Source: Paenimyroides aestuarii
Lineage (GTDB): Bacteria; Bacteroidota; Bacteroidia; Flavobacteriales; Flavobacteriaceae
NCBI RefSeq assembly: GCF_024628805.1
Contig: NZ_CP102382.1
Span: 2,728,001 to 2,792,000, forward strand
DNA length: 64,000 nucleotides
Direction: 5' to 3'
The notes below the pieces were generated by a model that made no database searches, was not told where the DNA came from, and saw only the letters and a program-made list of their open reading frames with translations. Below, in pieces: positions 6,098-11,620 of the stretch; the first letter of the stretch is position 1, and the number at the start of each line of letters is the position of its first letter. A program made the position numbers and the translations under genes.

Positions 6098-7156
6098 ATG
6101 AGCCATACTAGTGAAAACAATAAACAATTCATTGAAAAAATTTGGATAATTGTAGGAATTGTAGCTTTTTCGGTTTCTTTACTTTTAATCATTAAAACAT
6201 CGTTTAACGTTTTATTACTTGTTTTTGCAGGTGTTCTTCTGTCGGTTTTCTTTAGGGGATTGAGTGGTTTTATACAGCGCAAAACGGGCTTAAAGGAAAT
6301 GACAAGCGTAGGAGTTTCAATCGTATTATCGATAATTGTGCTCGTAGGATTTTTTTGGCTTATGGGTGCCAAAATTCAGATGCAGGTAGAAGAATTATCT
6401 GAAACGCTACCAAAAACTATTGATAAAGTGCGGGAAACACTCAACGCCAGTGAAGCGGGAAAGGAAGCGATGCACACAATTTCGGATGAAGACCACACAG
6501 CAAAGCTCACCAATTTTGCAAGTACGTTTTTTAAATCAACTTTTGGTGTTTTTGGTGATTTGTATGCTGTGCTTTTTATGGGATTTTTCTTTACTATTTC
6601 ACCAGGTCTGTATTTGAAAGGTATGGTGCAATTGATTCCGGGGAAGGCACAAGATGAGTTTGTAAAACTTTTGAATAAGTTGGGAACGCAATTGCGCAAA
6701 TGGCTTAAGGGAAAACTGCTCTCAATGCTTATAGTTGCAGCCATGACTGCTATTGGTTTGGCTATATTAGGAATTCCGTTATGGTTGGTGTTGGCACTTT
6801 TTGCCGGATTGGTTAGTTTTATTCCGAATTTTGGTCCTATCATTGGTATGACCCCAGCCGTTTTGGTAGGCTTAATGAGTGGAATTGACACAGCACTGTA
6901 TGTGGTAGGTATTTTTGTACTCATACAGTTTATAGAGAGTAATTTTATAACCACTACAATTCAGCAAAAAATGGTCAACCTTCCTCCGGCTCTTATCCTT
7001 ATTGCTCAATTAATTATGGGAGCATTGACAGGCGGTTGGGGACTTGTTCTGGCAACTCCCATCACAGTGGTACTTCTAGTAATTGTAAAAGAATTATATA
7101 TTAATAAACGCCACACCCCTTTAAAGAACTCTACAGATGGCAATGAAAAAAGTTGA
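6098..7156 (+). CDS. AI-2E family transporter (PerM/YdiK-like membrane protein)
   Basis: 352 aa integral membrane protein of the AI-2E transporter family, full length. Hydrophobic segments: near residues 15-55, 70-92, 150-175, and a C-terminal group from about 205 to 340 including LAILGIPLWLVLALFAGL, FIPNFGPIIG and ALTGGWGLVLATPI, the conserved core of this family. The middle (95-145) is a soluble amphipathic region. Members have been linked to AI-2 export or Na+/H+ exchange; the substrate cannot be read from sequence. The gene is single, between a plain gap and repeat block 3, and ends in a short charged tail. Confidence 0.88.
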   Translation: MSHTSENNKQFIEKIWIIVGIVAFSVSLLLIIKTSFNVLLLVFAGVLLSVFFRGLSGFIQRKTGLKEMTSVGVSIVLSIIVLVGFFWLMGAKIQMQVEELSETLPKTIDKVRETLNASEAGKEAMHTISDEDHTAKLTNFASTFFKSTFGVFGDLYAVLFMGFFFTISPGLYLKGMVQLIPGKAQDEFVKLLNKLGTQLRKWLKGKLLSMLIVAAMTAIGLAILGIPLWLVLALFAGLVSFIPNFGPIIGMTPAVLVGLMSGIDTALYVVGIFVLIQFIESNFITTTIQQKMVNLPPALILIAQLIMGALTGGWGLVLATPITVVLLVIVKELYINKRHTPLKNSTDGNEKS

Positions 7157-7169
7157 AACTGCTTTATTT

Positions 7170-9285
7170 GTGGTTGATTTGTTTAAGGCTTAAGGTTTTG
7201 TTTGATGTATAGCGTATGTCTGGGTGGTGTGATTCAGAGTGCGATTTGTAGAAAACCATTAATCTGTCGCGAATTGGTTTAAGGTTTTGTTTGATGTATA
7301 GCGTATAAATGTATATTGTATATCTGTATGATGTGGTTCATAGCGGAATTTGTGGTAATTTTTAATCTGTGGTTCACTTGTTCACTCGTTTACTGGCTCA
7401 CCTGTTTACTAGTTTAAAGTTTAAGGTTTAAAGTTGAGTGAAACATTAATTCTTATTTTGAAACCGTAAAACTCCCCCTTTGAAGGGGGATTAAGGGGGA
7501 TGTAATTTTTTTTCTGTATAATGTAAAATGTATATTGTATGATCGGGTGATGTGGTAAGTAGAGGAATTTGTGGTAACCTTTTTAATCTCGGGCTGATTT
7601 GTTTAAAGTTTAAGGTTTTGTTTGCTGTATATTGTATAAATGTATAGTGTATGTCCGGGTGATGAGGTTGATAGCGCCATTCTTGGAAATCATTTAATCT
7701 GTGGTTCACTTGTTCACTCGTTTACTGGCTCACCTGTTTACTAGTTTAAAGTTTTGGTTACTGTATAATGTAAAATGTATAGTGTATGTCCGGGTGATAT
7801 GGTTCATAGCGGAATTTGTGGTAATTTTTAATCTGGGAGTATATTAGTTTAAGGTTTAAAGTTTAAGGTTGGAGGTGTTTTAATATCATTCGGACTTAAA
7901 TTAACAAATCCTATCTTCATTCTTCTTCTTCTTCTTCTTCTTTTACGTCCATGTATTATTTTACAGCTTGGAAGTCGTGAATCTTCGATTTATGACTAAA
8001 AGAAGCAAAAGTCTTTCTTTTTTATCTTTCCTCGGTTAAAAAAACGGTTACCTTACATCTCAAAAACGATCAAATCGAAACGTAGCAAGCTACCCGATTT
8101 GATTACGTTTTTTTCAATGAGATAATCCCGCTATATCGGGACAAGCTCTTCGTCTTTTAACCAATGATGCTTTAATCCAGGTTATTAGTTTAAATTTGAG
8201 TGAAAAAGCGGATTCGACTGTTTACTTTCATTTTTTTACACTATACAACAATACAATTTACAATATACATATTAATAAAGAGGGTGTTTTTGCTGTATAG
8301 CGTATGAATGTATATTGTATGTTTGGATGATCAGGTTGATAGCGGATTTCGTGGTAACCTTTTTAATCTCGGGTTGACTGGTTTAAAGTTGAGTGAAACA
8401 TTATTCTTATTTTGAAACCGTAAAACTCCCCCTTTGAAGGGGGATTAAGGGGGATGTAATTTTTTTTCTGTATAATGTAAAATGTATATTGTATGATCGG
8501 GTGATGTGGTAAGTAGAGGAATTTGTGGTAACCTTTTTAATCTCGGGCTGATTTGTTTAAAGTTTAAGGTTTTGTTTGCTGTATATTGTATAAATGTATA
8601 GTGTATGTCTGGATGATCAGGTTTATAGCGCCTTTCTTGGAAATCATTTAATCTGTGGTTCACTTGTTCATTCGTTTATTGGCTCACCTGTTTACTAGTT
8701 TAAAGTTTTGGTTGCTGTATAATGTAAAAATGTATATTGTATATCTGTATGATGAGGTTGGTAGCGCCATTCTTGGAAATCATTTAATCTGTGGTTCACT
8801 TGTTCACTCGTTTACTGGCTCACCTGTTTACTAGTTTAAAGTTTAAGGTTTAAAGTTGAGTGAAACATTAATTCTTATTTTGAAACCGTAAAACTCCCCC
8901 TTTGAAGGGGGATTAAGGGGGATGTAATTTTTTTTCTGTATAATGTAAAATGTATATTGTATGATCGGGTGATGTGGTAAGTAGAGGAATTTGTGGTAAT
9001 TTTTAATCTGTGGTTGATTTGTTTAAAGTTTAAGGTTTTGTTTGTTGTATATTGTATAAATGTATAGTGTATGTCCGGGTGATATGGTTGATAGCGCCAT
9101 TCTTGGAAATCATTTAATCTGTGGTTCACTTGTTCACTCGTTTACTGGCTCACCTGTTTACTCATTTAAAGTTTAAGGTTTAAAGTTGAGTGAAAAAGCT
9201 GATTTAACTTTTTACTTATACTTTTTTTCACATTAAACACTATACAATCTACAGCAATACAATATACAACAATCATAAGGAGTTA
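7170..9285. repeat. intergenic repeat block 3 (largest)
   Basis: About 2.1 kb with no credible gene. Module A (G/C palindrome) occurs at 7469-7512, 8423-8470 and 8890-8938; module B at 7371-7440, 7702-7755, 8658-8705, 8792-8865 and 9123-9185; module C at 8219-8272 and 9206-9272; module E about ten times. The 380-bp module D lies at 7806-8193. The order A-E-B is kept three times with near-identical sequence, so parts of the block look like recent duplications. Translations of these copies give similar 72-84 aa frames that are products of the repeats. Confidence 0.9.
7806..8193 (+). repeat. long structured repeat, module D copy 1
   Basis: Nearly identical to 10751-11125. Foldable parts: hairpin AGTCGTGAATC (7973-7983) with GATTTATGACT (7987-7997), closed by two G-T pairs that are wobbles only if the + strand is transcribed; a long stem ATCTCA (8057-8062) with TGAGAT (8118-8123), continuing as ATCAAATCG (8069-8077) with CGATTTGAT (8095-8103); hairpin TCCCG/CGGGA (8126-8141); and an enclosing helix GGTTAAAA (8034-8041) with TTTTAACC (8155-8162). 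A CTT microsatellite sits at about 7919-7942. No protein is apparent. A structured RNA or a non-autonomous element are the main options. Confidence 0.75.
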
Positions 9286-9290
9286 CTTTT

Positions 9291-10496
9291 TCACCAATTA
9301 TTCAATAAAAAGTTTTGTAATTCCACCACTAATATTCCTTCAATAGTGTTACCTGAAAAATGATCAAGAGTTACTACCATTTTGGGATAATTATCTTTTA
9401 TCTTTTTTAGATTGCCAAATTCACGTTCTATCGTTTTTTCTTCTAATAACGCCAAAGCAACTTGAACATACACTTTTTCTCCATTTTTTTCTGCTATAAA
9501 GTCAATTTCATTTGCACCTATTATTCCAATAGTAACCGAATAGCCTTCAATCAATAAATGATTATATACCACATTTTCGATTATTTTTCCACGGTCTTGC
9601 AGTTTATATCCCCACATTGCATTTCTTATACCCATATTTTCAAAATAGTACTTCTCTCCAATCTCAAATATTTTTTTTCCTTCTATATCATACCTCTTTA
9701 CCTGATGAATTAAAAACGCGTTGGTTAAGTGCTGTATATAAAGTTGAACTTGATTGGATGCTATATTTACTTTTTGAGATTTCAAAAAATCACTGATTTT
9801 TTTTGCTGAAAAAACACTTCCTGTGTTAGAAGCCAAAAAGAAAATCAATTGTTCTAAAAAAACAGTGTTTCGTACCGCATATCGATTGATTACATCTCGG
9901 AATACAATGGTGGAGTAAATATTCTTTAAATATTCAAAAATGATGGCATCTTCAAATGGTAAATGTTTTAAATAAGGCAAACCGCCGTATTTCAGGAATT
10001 TTTCTAATGAAACCGAATTGTTTTCTAAGTCATGAAATGTTAAAAACTCTTTGTATGATAAACTGTAAACAGTTATTTCAATTGCTCTGCCACTTAAAAA
10101 GCCTGAAATATCTCCAGATAAAAGGTTGGCGTTGCTACCTGTGCAGTACAAATCTAAATCATTGTGAAGCAATAAAGAACGAAGCGCTGTTTCAAATTCA
10201 ATGATATCTTGTATCTCATCTATAAAAACATAAGTTTTAAATGTTTTCGACTTATTTTTTAAAATATAATCATTAAGATCTTGGGCGTTTTTCAAATGCG
10301 AAAATGCTAAATCTTCTTTGTTTATATAAATAATTGTTGCGTCAGGATCATCTTTTTTAATAATAGTCATCAATTGAAGTAAAAGGTAACTTTTACCCAC
10401 TCTGCGTTGTCCGGTAAAACATTTTATGAGATTTTTTCCAATAAAAGGTTTCACACGATTTATATATAACGGTCTTAATATAGCGTTTGTTTCCAA
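9291..10496 (-). CDS. AAA ATPase with C-terminal DUF4143 domain
   Basis: 401 aa, usual length. Walker A is GQRRVGKS (29-36), Walker B is YVFIDE (89-94), followed by GSNANLLS (sensor region) and SGRAIEI. The C-terminal part (about 200-390) is a winged helix followed by a DUF4143/PD-(D/E)xK-like segment with EIDFIAEKNGEKVYVQVA. These proteins are common multi-copy accessory ATPases of bacteria and archaea with no established substrate. The start is probably TTG (10494-10496): an in-frame stop lies three codons upstream and no ATG occurs before Walker A. The gene is a single island between two repeat blocks. Confidence 0.87.
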   Translation of the reverse strand: METNAILRPLYINRVKPFIGKNLIKCFTGQRRVGKSYLLLQLMTIIKKDDPDATIIYINKEDLAFSHLKNAQDLNDYILKNKSKTFKTYVFIDEIQDIIEFETALRSLLLHNDLDLYCTGSNANLLSGDISGFLSGRAIEITVYSLSYKEFLTFHDLENNSVSLEKFLKYGGLPYLKHLPFEDAIIFEYLKNIYSTIVFRDVINRYAVRNTVFLEQLIFFLASNTGSVFSAKKISDFLKSQKVNIASNQVQLYIQHLTNAFLIHQVKRYDIEGKKIFEIGEKYYFENMGIRNAMWGYKLQDRGKIIENVVYNHLLIEGYSVTIGIIGANEIDFIAEKNGEKVYVQVALALLEEKTIEREFGNLKKIKDNYPKMVVTLDHFSGNTIEGILVVELQNFLLNNW

Positions 10497-10599: not shown

Positions 10600-11620
10600 A
10601 GCGCAGTAAAGTTTATTGAGCAATACTTGGAAATCTTTTAATTTGTGGTTCACTTGTTCACTCGTTTACTGGCTCACTTGTTTACTAGTTTAAGGTTTCG
10701 GTTGCTGTATATTGTATAAATGTATATTGTATGTCTGGATGATGAGGTTGATAGCGGAATTTGTGGTAATTTTTAATCTGGGAGTATATTGGTTTAAGGG
10801 TTAAAGTTTAAGGTTGGAGGTGCTTTAATATCATTCGGACTTAAATTAACAAATTTTATCTTCATTCTTCTTCTTTTACGTCCATGTATTATTTTACAGC
10901 TTGGAAGTCGTGAATCTTCGATTTATGACTAAAAGAAGCAAAAGTCTTTCTTTTTTATCTTGCCTCGGTTAAAAAACGGTTACCTTACATCTCAAAAACG
11001 ATCAAATCGAAACGTAGCAAGCTACCCGATTTGATTACGTTTTTTTCAATGAGATAATCCCGCTATATCGGGACAAGCTCTTCGTCTTTTAACCAATGGC
11101 GCTTTAATCCAGGTTATTAGTTTAAGGATGCAGTGAAAAAGCTGATTTAACTGTTTACTTATACTTTTTTTACACTATACAACAATACAATTTACAATAT
11201 ACATATAAATGAAGAGGTTGTTTTTGCTGTATAGCGTAGGAATGTATATTGTATGTTTGGATGATAAGGTTGATAGCGCAATTTGTGGTAACCTTTTTAA
11301 TCTCGGGCTGATTGGTTTAAAGTTTAAAGTTTTGGTTGCTGTATAATGTAAAATGTATATTGTATCTCTGGATGATATGGTTGATAGCGCCATTCTTGGG
11401 AATCATTTAATCTGTGGTTCAGTGGCTTATTTGTTTACTCGTTTAAGGTTTAAAGTTTAGTGAAAAAGCTGATTTAACTGTTTACTTATATTTTTTTACA
11501 CTATACAACAATACAATTTACAATATACATTTGTGTATTATAAATATTTCAACATCCCCCCTGCCCCCTTCAAAGGGGGAATATTTACAGTTTTGTTTTT
11601 AGTTTGGGATTATAAAAAAA
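10600..11620. repeat. intergenic repeat block 4
   Basis: Contains module B at 10648-10695 and a truncated B at 11417-11460, module E near 10725, 11240 and 11360, module D copy 2 at 10751-11125, module C at 11152-11205 and 11479-11530, and the inverted module A at 11551-11600. The right end (C plus inverted A) repeats the arrangement at 4770-4890 almost word for word, so blocks 2 and 4 share an end structure. Confidence 0.88.
10751..11125 (+). repeat. long structured repeat, module D copy 2
   Basis: Second copy of the element at 7806-8193, same orientation. Differences are few: a shorter CTT run (about 10865-10875), one A fewer in the A tract near 10973, single-base changes near 10962 and 11098. 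All hairpin arms listed for copy 1 are unchanged here. Both copies are followed by module C, so the conserved unit may extend further right. Confidence 0.75.

Follow-up and report, generated by a model that had tools for sequence, protein, structure and literature searches.

The genome of Paenimyroides aestuarii is a single contig of 2.96 Mb, of which the 64,000-nucleotide stretch analysed here (the window) is a part. A gene for an AI-2E family transporter lies at 6098-7156 of the window and a gene for an AAA_14/DUF4143 ATPase at 9291-10496 on the minus strand, the latter located between two copies of a non-coding element. Diverged repeat units (TGTATATTGTATAAATGTATA..., TTCACTTGTTCACTCGTTTACTGGCTCACC..., CCCCCTTTGAAGGGGG), extending over 7160-9290 and 10600-11560, enclose both copies. 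An earlier note on this DNA had described the pair and had named the stem arms 7973-7983/7987-7997, 8034-8041/8155-8162 and 8057-8077/8095-8123; copies and arms are real and lie where they were placed, and the two copies are 95% alike. The homologous unit, at ∼7879-8184 and ∼10824-11116, is shorter than the 7806-8193 originally given; the ∼70 bases at 7806-7878 are part of the surrounding repeat array, match other places in it and do not belong to the element.

Because two copies cannot show covariation, homologs from other genomes were needed, and the description that follows draws on a covariance model, R1, and on two alignments. The first, A1, comprises 14 copies, was not fitted to the model and carries a structure written by eye; the second, A3, comprises 99 copies fitted to R1 and, like all R1-based alignments, leans towards the structure of the model. 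Helix coordinates are written as plus strand positions and the strand that we infer to fold is the minus strand.

7879-8184, minus strand: element copy 1, type A; ends approximate, from the limits of homology to copies L011/L031 of genomes G026 and G145
10824-11116, minus strand: element copy 2, type A; ends approximate, from the alignment with copy 1
7937-7945 (CTTCTTTTA) and 7997-8005 (TAAAAGAAG): arms of hairpin P1, from sequence; homologs without the insert have the two arms side by side
7946-7992, limits approximate: segment inserted in the P1 loop, missing in L033, L039, L035, L041 and others
7994-7997 (GACT) with 8010-8013 (AGTC): overlapping helix, a pseudoknot or switch; T7997 is common to P1
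8034-8047 with 8147-8162: outer helix of P2, bulged; 8 of 12 pairs change on both sides in A1
8048-8053 with 8120-8125: inner helix of P2; 3 of 6 pairs change on both sides in A1
8062-8077/8095-8112: conserved part of the long stem P3; 10 of 16 pairs change on both sides in A1 and 15 of 16 in A3
8057-8061/8119-8123: extension of P3 in the window lineage, competing with the inner helix of P2
8082-8093: variable tip of P3
8126-8141: small palindrome TCCCGCTATATCGGGA, an addition of the window lineage within P2
10870-10878/10930-10938: P1 of copy 2 (this and the following lines from motif positions)
10927-10930/10943-10946: overlapping helix of copy 2
within 10967-11094: P2 of copy 2
10989-11009/11027-11055: P3 of copy 2
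11058-11073: small palindrome of copy 2

R1 matches copy 1 at 7999-8181 with 143.2 bits and copy 2 at 10932-11113 with 153.6 bits, and a third, more distant relative is found in the same genome at 1653503-1653658 (90 bits). The statement that every stem arm is unchanged between the window copies is nearly true, the exception being one A that copy 2 lacks in the 8034-8053 arm; copy 2 also has T8029 replaced by G and the AT at 8167-8168 replaced by GC, and these two changes touch a tentative closing helix, P0. No open reading frame of at least 100 codons overlaps either copy, the earlier note having likewise seen none that explains the element, and a coding origin was rejected on this ground and from the reading frames as judged by eye.

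Relative to many homologs the window copies carry two later insertions, at 7946-7992 and 8126-8141. The segment at 7946-7992 is repeat-like and occurs alone, as separate copies, in G026; in an alignment read by eye it is present in 6 of 16 copies and missing in the other 10. A repeat related to it (core GAATCTTCGATTT) is inserted in some F. undicola copies, namely L145, L146 and L195, where it is split. The second region, A1 columns 161-181, consists of gaps in the other 12 rows of that alignment. Most of the 7973-7997 hairpin sits inside the first of these segments. Its two G-T pairs (7977-7993 and 7979-7991), on which a preference for a plus strand transcript had been based, do exist and are located in or at the edge of a dispensable insert.

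The family is widely distributed. At E 1e-8 or better a DNA search finds it in 7 of the 398 genomes of the genus, the present one being among them, and the copies from those 7 align over most of their length despite sequence differences. With R1 at E 0.001, matches are obtained in at least 35 of the 398, again with this genome included, a lower bound because 7 candidates were scored per genome; rescoring of 150 candidates per genome at E 0.01 gives 3-48 copies in each of 11 genomes. Among 397 genomes sampled from the family and at a stricter E of 1e-5 there are three matches, namely this genome and two that belong to other genera. Named genomes, scanned with a pattern, yield at least 120 stretches, and the 80 matches listed comprise records of Flavobacterium and of Paenimyroides, MAGs of Flavobacteriaceae/Flavobacteriales and one Lutibacter MAG. 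Rfam 15 at gathering score gives no match in the window and none in 90,776 bases of 10 element-bearing loci, and a known Rfam RNA was set aside for this reason; the element shares with Rfam families a structure supported by covariation and differs from them in the lack of a gathering-level match. The only weaker match, to the SAM-III riboswitch at 8017-8093 on the minus strand, reaches 16.4 bits where the cut-off is 45 (E 0.95) and is taken as chance. A phage or plasmid origin was rejected, there being no match to the element in either collection; a 16-base motif occurs in 21 viral contigs, and the parts of them that were fetched gave no R1 match. Among the papers listed in searches of open-access literature, a scope outside which most subscription papers fall, none has a title or abstract start that describes such a family. 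The family of mobile folded intergenic elements is genuine and, as far as these literature and database searches reach, undescribed. From the earlier note, the kept fold, the lack of any coding explanation found and the suggestion of an undescribed structured RNA or a non-autonomous element are supported.

The order of parts is P1, a hairpin with an A-rich arm AAAGAA, then a CAAAA linker, a complement to the P1 loop directly after the linker, P2 with a small bulge, and P3 with a highly variable tip. In A3, two-sided change is seen at 31 of 35 pairs, a number reached by 2 of 500 shuffles, and there are 897 cells with two-sided change, as compared with 288 in shuffled and 51-194 in slid alignments (0 of 500 shuffles reach 897); 88.4% of cells pair, versus 61.8% in shuffles. 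The unfitted A1 shows two-sided change at 23 of 42 pairs, with 82 such cells versus 30 shuffled and 6-19 slid. The number of further pair types is not above shuffles, being reached by 303 of 500 for A3 and 246 of 500 for A1. Base pairs covary across homologs in both alignments; homologs that keep sequence and lose pairing had been named as evidence against the earlier reading, and what is found is the opposite, pairing kept while sequence changes.

The overlapping helix at the 5' side varies in concert as well: the complementarity between the P1 loop and the bases downstream is specific to each copy. Over the 91 of 99 rows that could be parsed (61 once duplicates are removed) the mean complement is 4.69 bases versus 3.17 (sd 0.13) when shuffled, a value reached by 0 of 300 shuffles. 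Examples are CTTGAT/ATCAAG, AAAGAT/ATCTTT, AAACAC/GTGTTT and GACT/AGTC, among others, and in a few copies the complement is only 2-3 bases. Two readings of this helix are possible, a pseudoknot and a two-state switch. It looks too tight to form fully alongside P1, hence possibly a switch; a full pseudoknot was rejected for either strand by reasoning on loop lengths, which seem short for all pairs, and a switch is equally possible.

Folding of both strands, which the earlier note had called for, returns a divided answer. The plus strand folds at -64.6 kcal/mol with z -4.3 (0 of 100 shuffles as good) and the minus strand at -67.9 kcal/mol with z -2.2 (1 of 100 as good); since the lower energy belongs to the minus strand and the better z-score to the plus strand, folding alone does not pick between them. 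Mispairs are more informative. An A.C mispair written on the plus strand is a G.U on the minus strand, so that an excess of A.C points to the minus strand. Counted on a tree as events arising from Watson-Crick pairs, with one pair omitted per set (in type B a constant T.G pair, in A3 a mostly unpaired one), mispairs are A.C in 47 and G.T in 16 cases for type B (p 0.0001) and A.C in 49 and G.T in 22 cases for 71 other rows (p 0.002); the two sets are not fully separate, as the 71 rows include at least three B-like copies sorted with type A (L056, L058, L071). G.U is therefore preferred to A.C if the minus strand acts and not if the plus strand does, type C being even (AC 13, GT 12 cells). The constant T.G pair of type B, seen in 95 of 96 cells, would as a wobble suit the plus strand and is a single fixed state. 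Wobble states are scarce overall, with 44 G.T and 155 A.C cells at pairs that are at least 60% Watson-Crick, and this scarcity keeps single-stranded DNA in play.

Gene orientation gives a second line of evidence. Both flanking genes are available for 93 of 100 type-B copies, and between co-directional genes the minus strand is in sense in 48 of 70 (p 0.003), with 18 convergent versus 5 divergent sites (p 0.01). In types A, C and D the minus strand is not favoured as the sense strand, and type A leans the opposite way, plus sense 10 versus 6; the counts are ++10, --6, -+10 and +-3 for A, -+7, ++3 and +-3 for C, and ++3 and -+3 for D. The mispair bias and the type-B orientation lead us, with moderate confidence, to the minus strand as the one whose fold acts. 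In a simple scan for terminators, 11 of 68 cases have one in the interval from the end of the gene to the element and 2 of 68 within 120 bases beyond the element, with 6 of 41 and 0 of 41 on the other side, counts that are not decisive for a model of mRNA 3' ends.

A structured RNA gene or cis-element on the plus strand, the original reading, is in our judgement very unlikely. The fold z-score, the two G-T pairs, the constant T.G of type B and the plus-sense lean of type A between co-directional genes speak for it; the mispair bias runs in the opposite direction in both sets (97 subfamily-B copies and the 71 other rows), the G-T hairpin sits in an insert and the orientation bias of type B favours minus. 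Two near-identical copies can, as here, give a misleading strand inference.

Evidence of mobility comes from subfamily B, whose core of ∼170 bases runs from ATTTTC to GGAC. With up to 3 mismatches the left and right end motifs number 53/53 in F. undicola, 39/40 in F. sufflavum, 16/14 in F. flevense (G005) and 10/9 in F. glycines (G430). The ends are sharp: with a 901-base query most other copies in G430 and G005 match ∼327-497 alone, mostly at 88-99%, and the flanks differ. Copies are dispersed beside unrelated genes, with Pfam matches of neighbours that include NqrA/NqrB, a dTDP-sugar-type dehydratase and nucleotidyltransferase and the impB/mucB/samB family, and only 3 of 100 fall in open reading frames of at least 100 codons; one insertion site lies between nqrA-like and nqrB-like genes. 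Four orthologous sites are without the element in a relative. For L136 and L175 the two flanks, placed end to end, match F. sufflavum without interruption, and at the L184 site in F. seoulense and the L144 site in F. glycines the flanks adjoin and leave no room for an element. Exact joins cannot be read in pairwise alignments because the intergenic sequence has diverged (the left flank is poorly aligned for L144 and L184), and absence is accordingly judged from adjoining or spanning flank matches and not from pairwise alignments of the putative empty sites. Sequence comparison of sharp ends, intergenic placement at unrelated loci and four sites without the element indicates that subfamily B is a mobile element.

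A MITE would have terminal inverted repeats and a target-site duplication. The core ends ATTTTC and GGAC do not form an inverted repeat; a minority of type B has an outer AATGACGTT/AACGTCATT pair, both motifs occurring within 300 nt in 15 of 95 copies. No target-site duplication is evident by eye in 20 copies with strongly differing flanks. An autonomous version was looked for and rejected on the near equality of left and right motif numbers and on spacing judged by eye. At the L184 site the element stands in opposite orientations in different species. Type-B copies L184, L152, L310 and L061 lie by an intrinsic terminator that seems to belong to one and the same gene across several species; both orientations occur, and this border is possibly an insertion hotspot.

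Taken as a whole the data are best accounted for, and in our judgement probably so, by a non-autonomous mobile element, non-coding and dispersed in Flavobacterium sensu lato, whose minus-strand fold is under selection and recognised. In its layout an overlapping hairpin module comes first and a long bulged hairpin second. The minus strand, at least of type B, would be read mainly within mRNA, downstream of or between genes, and the folded strand, as RNA or as single-stranded DNA of the same polarity, would be recognised by a putative host or mobile enzyme during copying or movement. Any effects on neighbouring mRNAs, be it protection of their 3' ends or attenuation, would be incidental to this. 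Selection on the folded minus strand is suggested by the paired changes together with the strand biases.

The chief competitor, possible though somewhat unlikely, is a palindrome acting at the DNA level (REP-, MITE- or attC-like), with single-stranded DNA hairpins as recombination substrate and no RNA function. Double changes lead from one Watson-Crick pair to another, wobble states are few, and flips make up roughly half of the double changes or more. Such wobble-poor double changes are unusual for an RNA gene, and the pattern suits DNA hairpins or arm-to-arm templating equally. Double changes without wobble dominate the 897 two-sided cells of A3, where 165 double events stand against 84 to A.C or G.T, and the high copy number and occurrence in both orientations, even opposite ones at one gene border, likewise fit a DNA palindrome. 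Against this, the strand-biased mispairs and the gene orientation would need a reason, and the enzymes expected of such systems are not found in company with the element. Y1 transposase (PF01797) genes match in 10 of 11 genomes, yet the 30 places fetched, with short flanks, out of 38 contain no R1 match, and G145, a draft genome with 17 element copies, has no Y1 match; a RAYT/REP system was rejected on these two results. No integron integrase (TIGR02249) exceeds the curated cut-off in any of the 11 genomes, weaker matches being present in 11 of 11 and also in 13 of 14 control genomes, and an integron cassette array, considered for the same-orientation clusters in G348, was rejected as well. 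Quite unlikely, in turn, is arm-to-arm templated repair that matches imperfect palindromes without selection on structure. Flips versus transition-type double changes number 15 versus 17 in type B and 99 versus 66 in A3, as repair would allow, but unpaired features are also kept (the 3-base bulge, the CAAAA linker and the complement downstream of the loop) and are not readily explained by it. That the copies are decayed ends of an ordinary insertion sequence we regard as very unlikely: the window copies do carry insertions within a repeat block and the outer pair is present in some type-B copies, but left and right motifs are about equal in the four genomes, no protein-coding version was met and the internal fold is conserved.

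A mobile structured RNA of a new class, in which a minus transcript within host mRNAs would be recognised and a borrowed enzyme would copy it to further places between genes in SINE-like fashion, is unlikely too. The long hairpin, the 3' overlapping-hairpin module and a U-rich linker facing an A-rich stem would then be the parts of such an RNA.

Among known systems, the ERIC/RU elements of enterobacteria are imperfect palindromes. According to PMC2759123 and PMC2229807 they are 103-168 bp long, intergenic, present in many copies and viewed as non-autonomous mobile elements. Our element, likened to them by description only, is also short, intergenic, multi-copy and non-autonomous; it differs in belonging to another phylum and in having a covarying overlapping-hairpin module and large divergence with kept pairing. 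Integron attC sites are bulged hairpins that keep their fold while sequence varies. The kept fold, variable sequence, bulged hairpin and same-orientation order of some clusters recall them, whereas no integrase passes the cut-off and type B is dispersed beside unrelated genes. REPs are 20-40 bp according to PMC3733652, which also reports CGTC repeats from Bacteroidetes. Palindromic, intergenic character is shared with REPs and REPINs, and the 7946-7992 insert starts with CGTC and on our own reading looks REP-like; at 170-310 bp, in contrast to 20-40 bp, the element is larger, and the Y1 places fetched showed no copy of it.

The family, which evolves fast, covaries clearly and has no Rfam match, sits intergenically in many Flavobacterium-type genomes, and its well over a hundred folded variants form a natural series for the spread of small non-coding elements that lack an enzyme of their own. 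The same variants serve the question of what such elements do to host mRNAs. Two arrangements recur. In G348 and G300 (L091, L092, L094) there is a repeated gene set with open reading frames of 125-131, 301-310, ∼150, ∼350 and ∼94 codons, with large reading frames on the other strand and the element each time at the border of the ∼150 and ∼350 codon genes. In L045, L096 and L092, in more than one genome, +/- pairs of elements stand tail to tail ∼50 bases apart.
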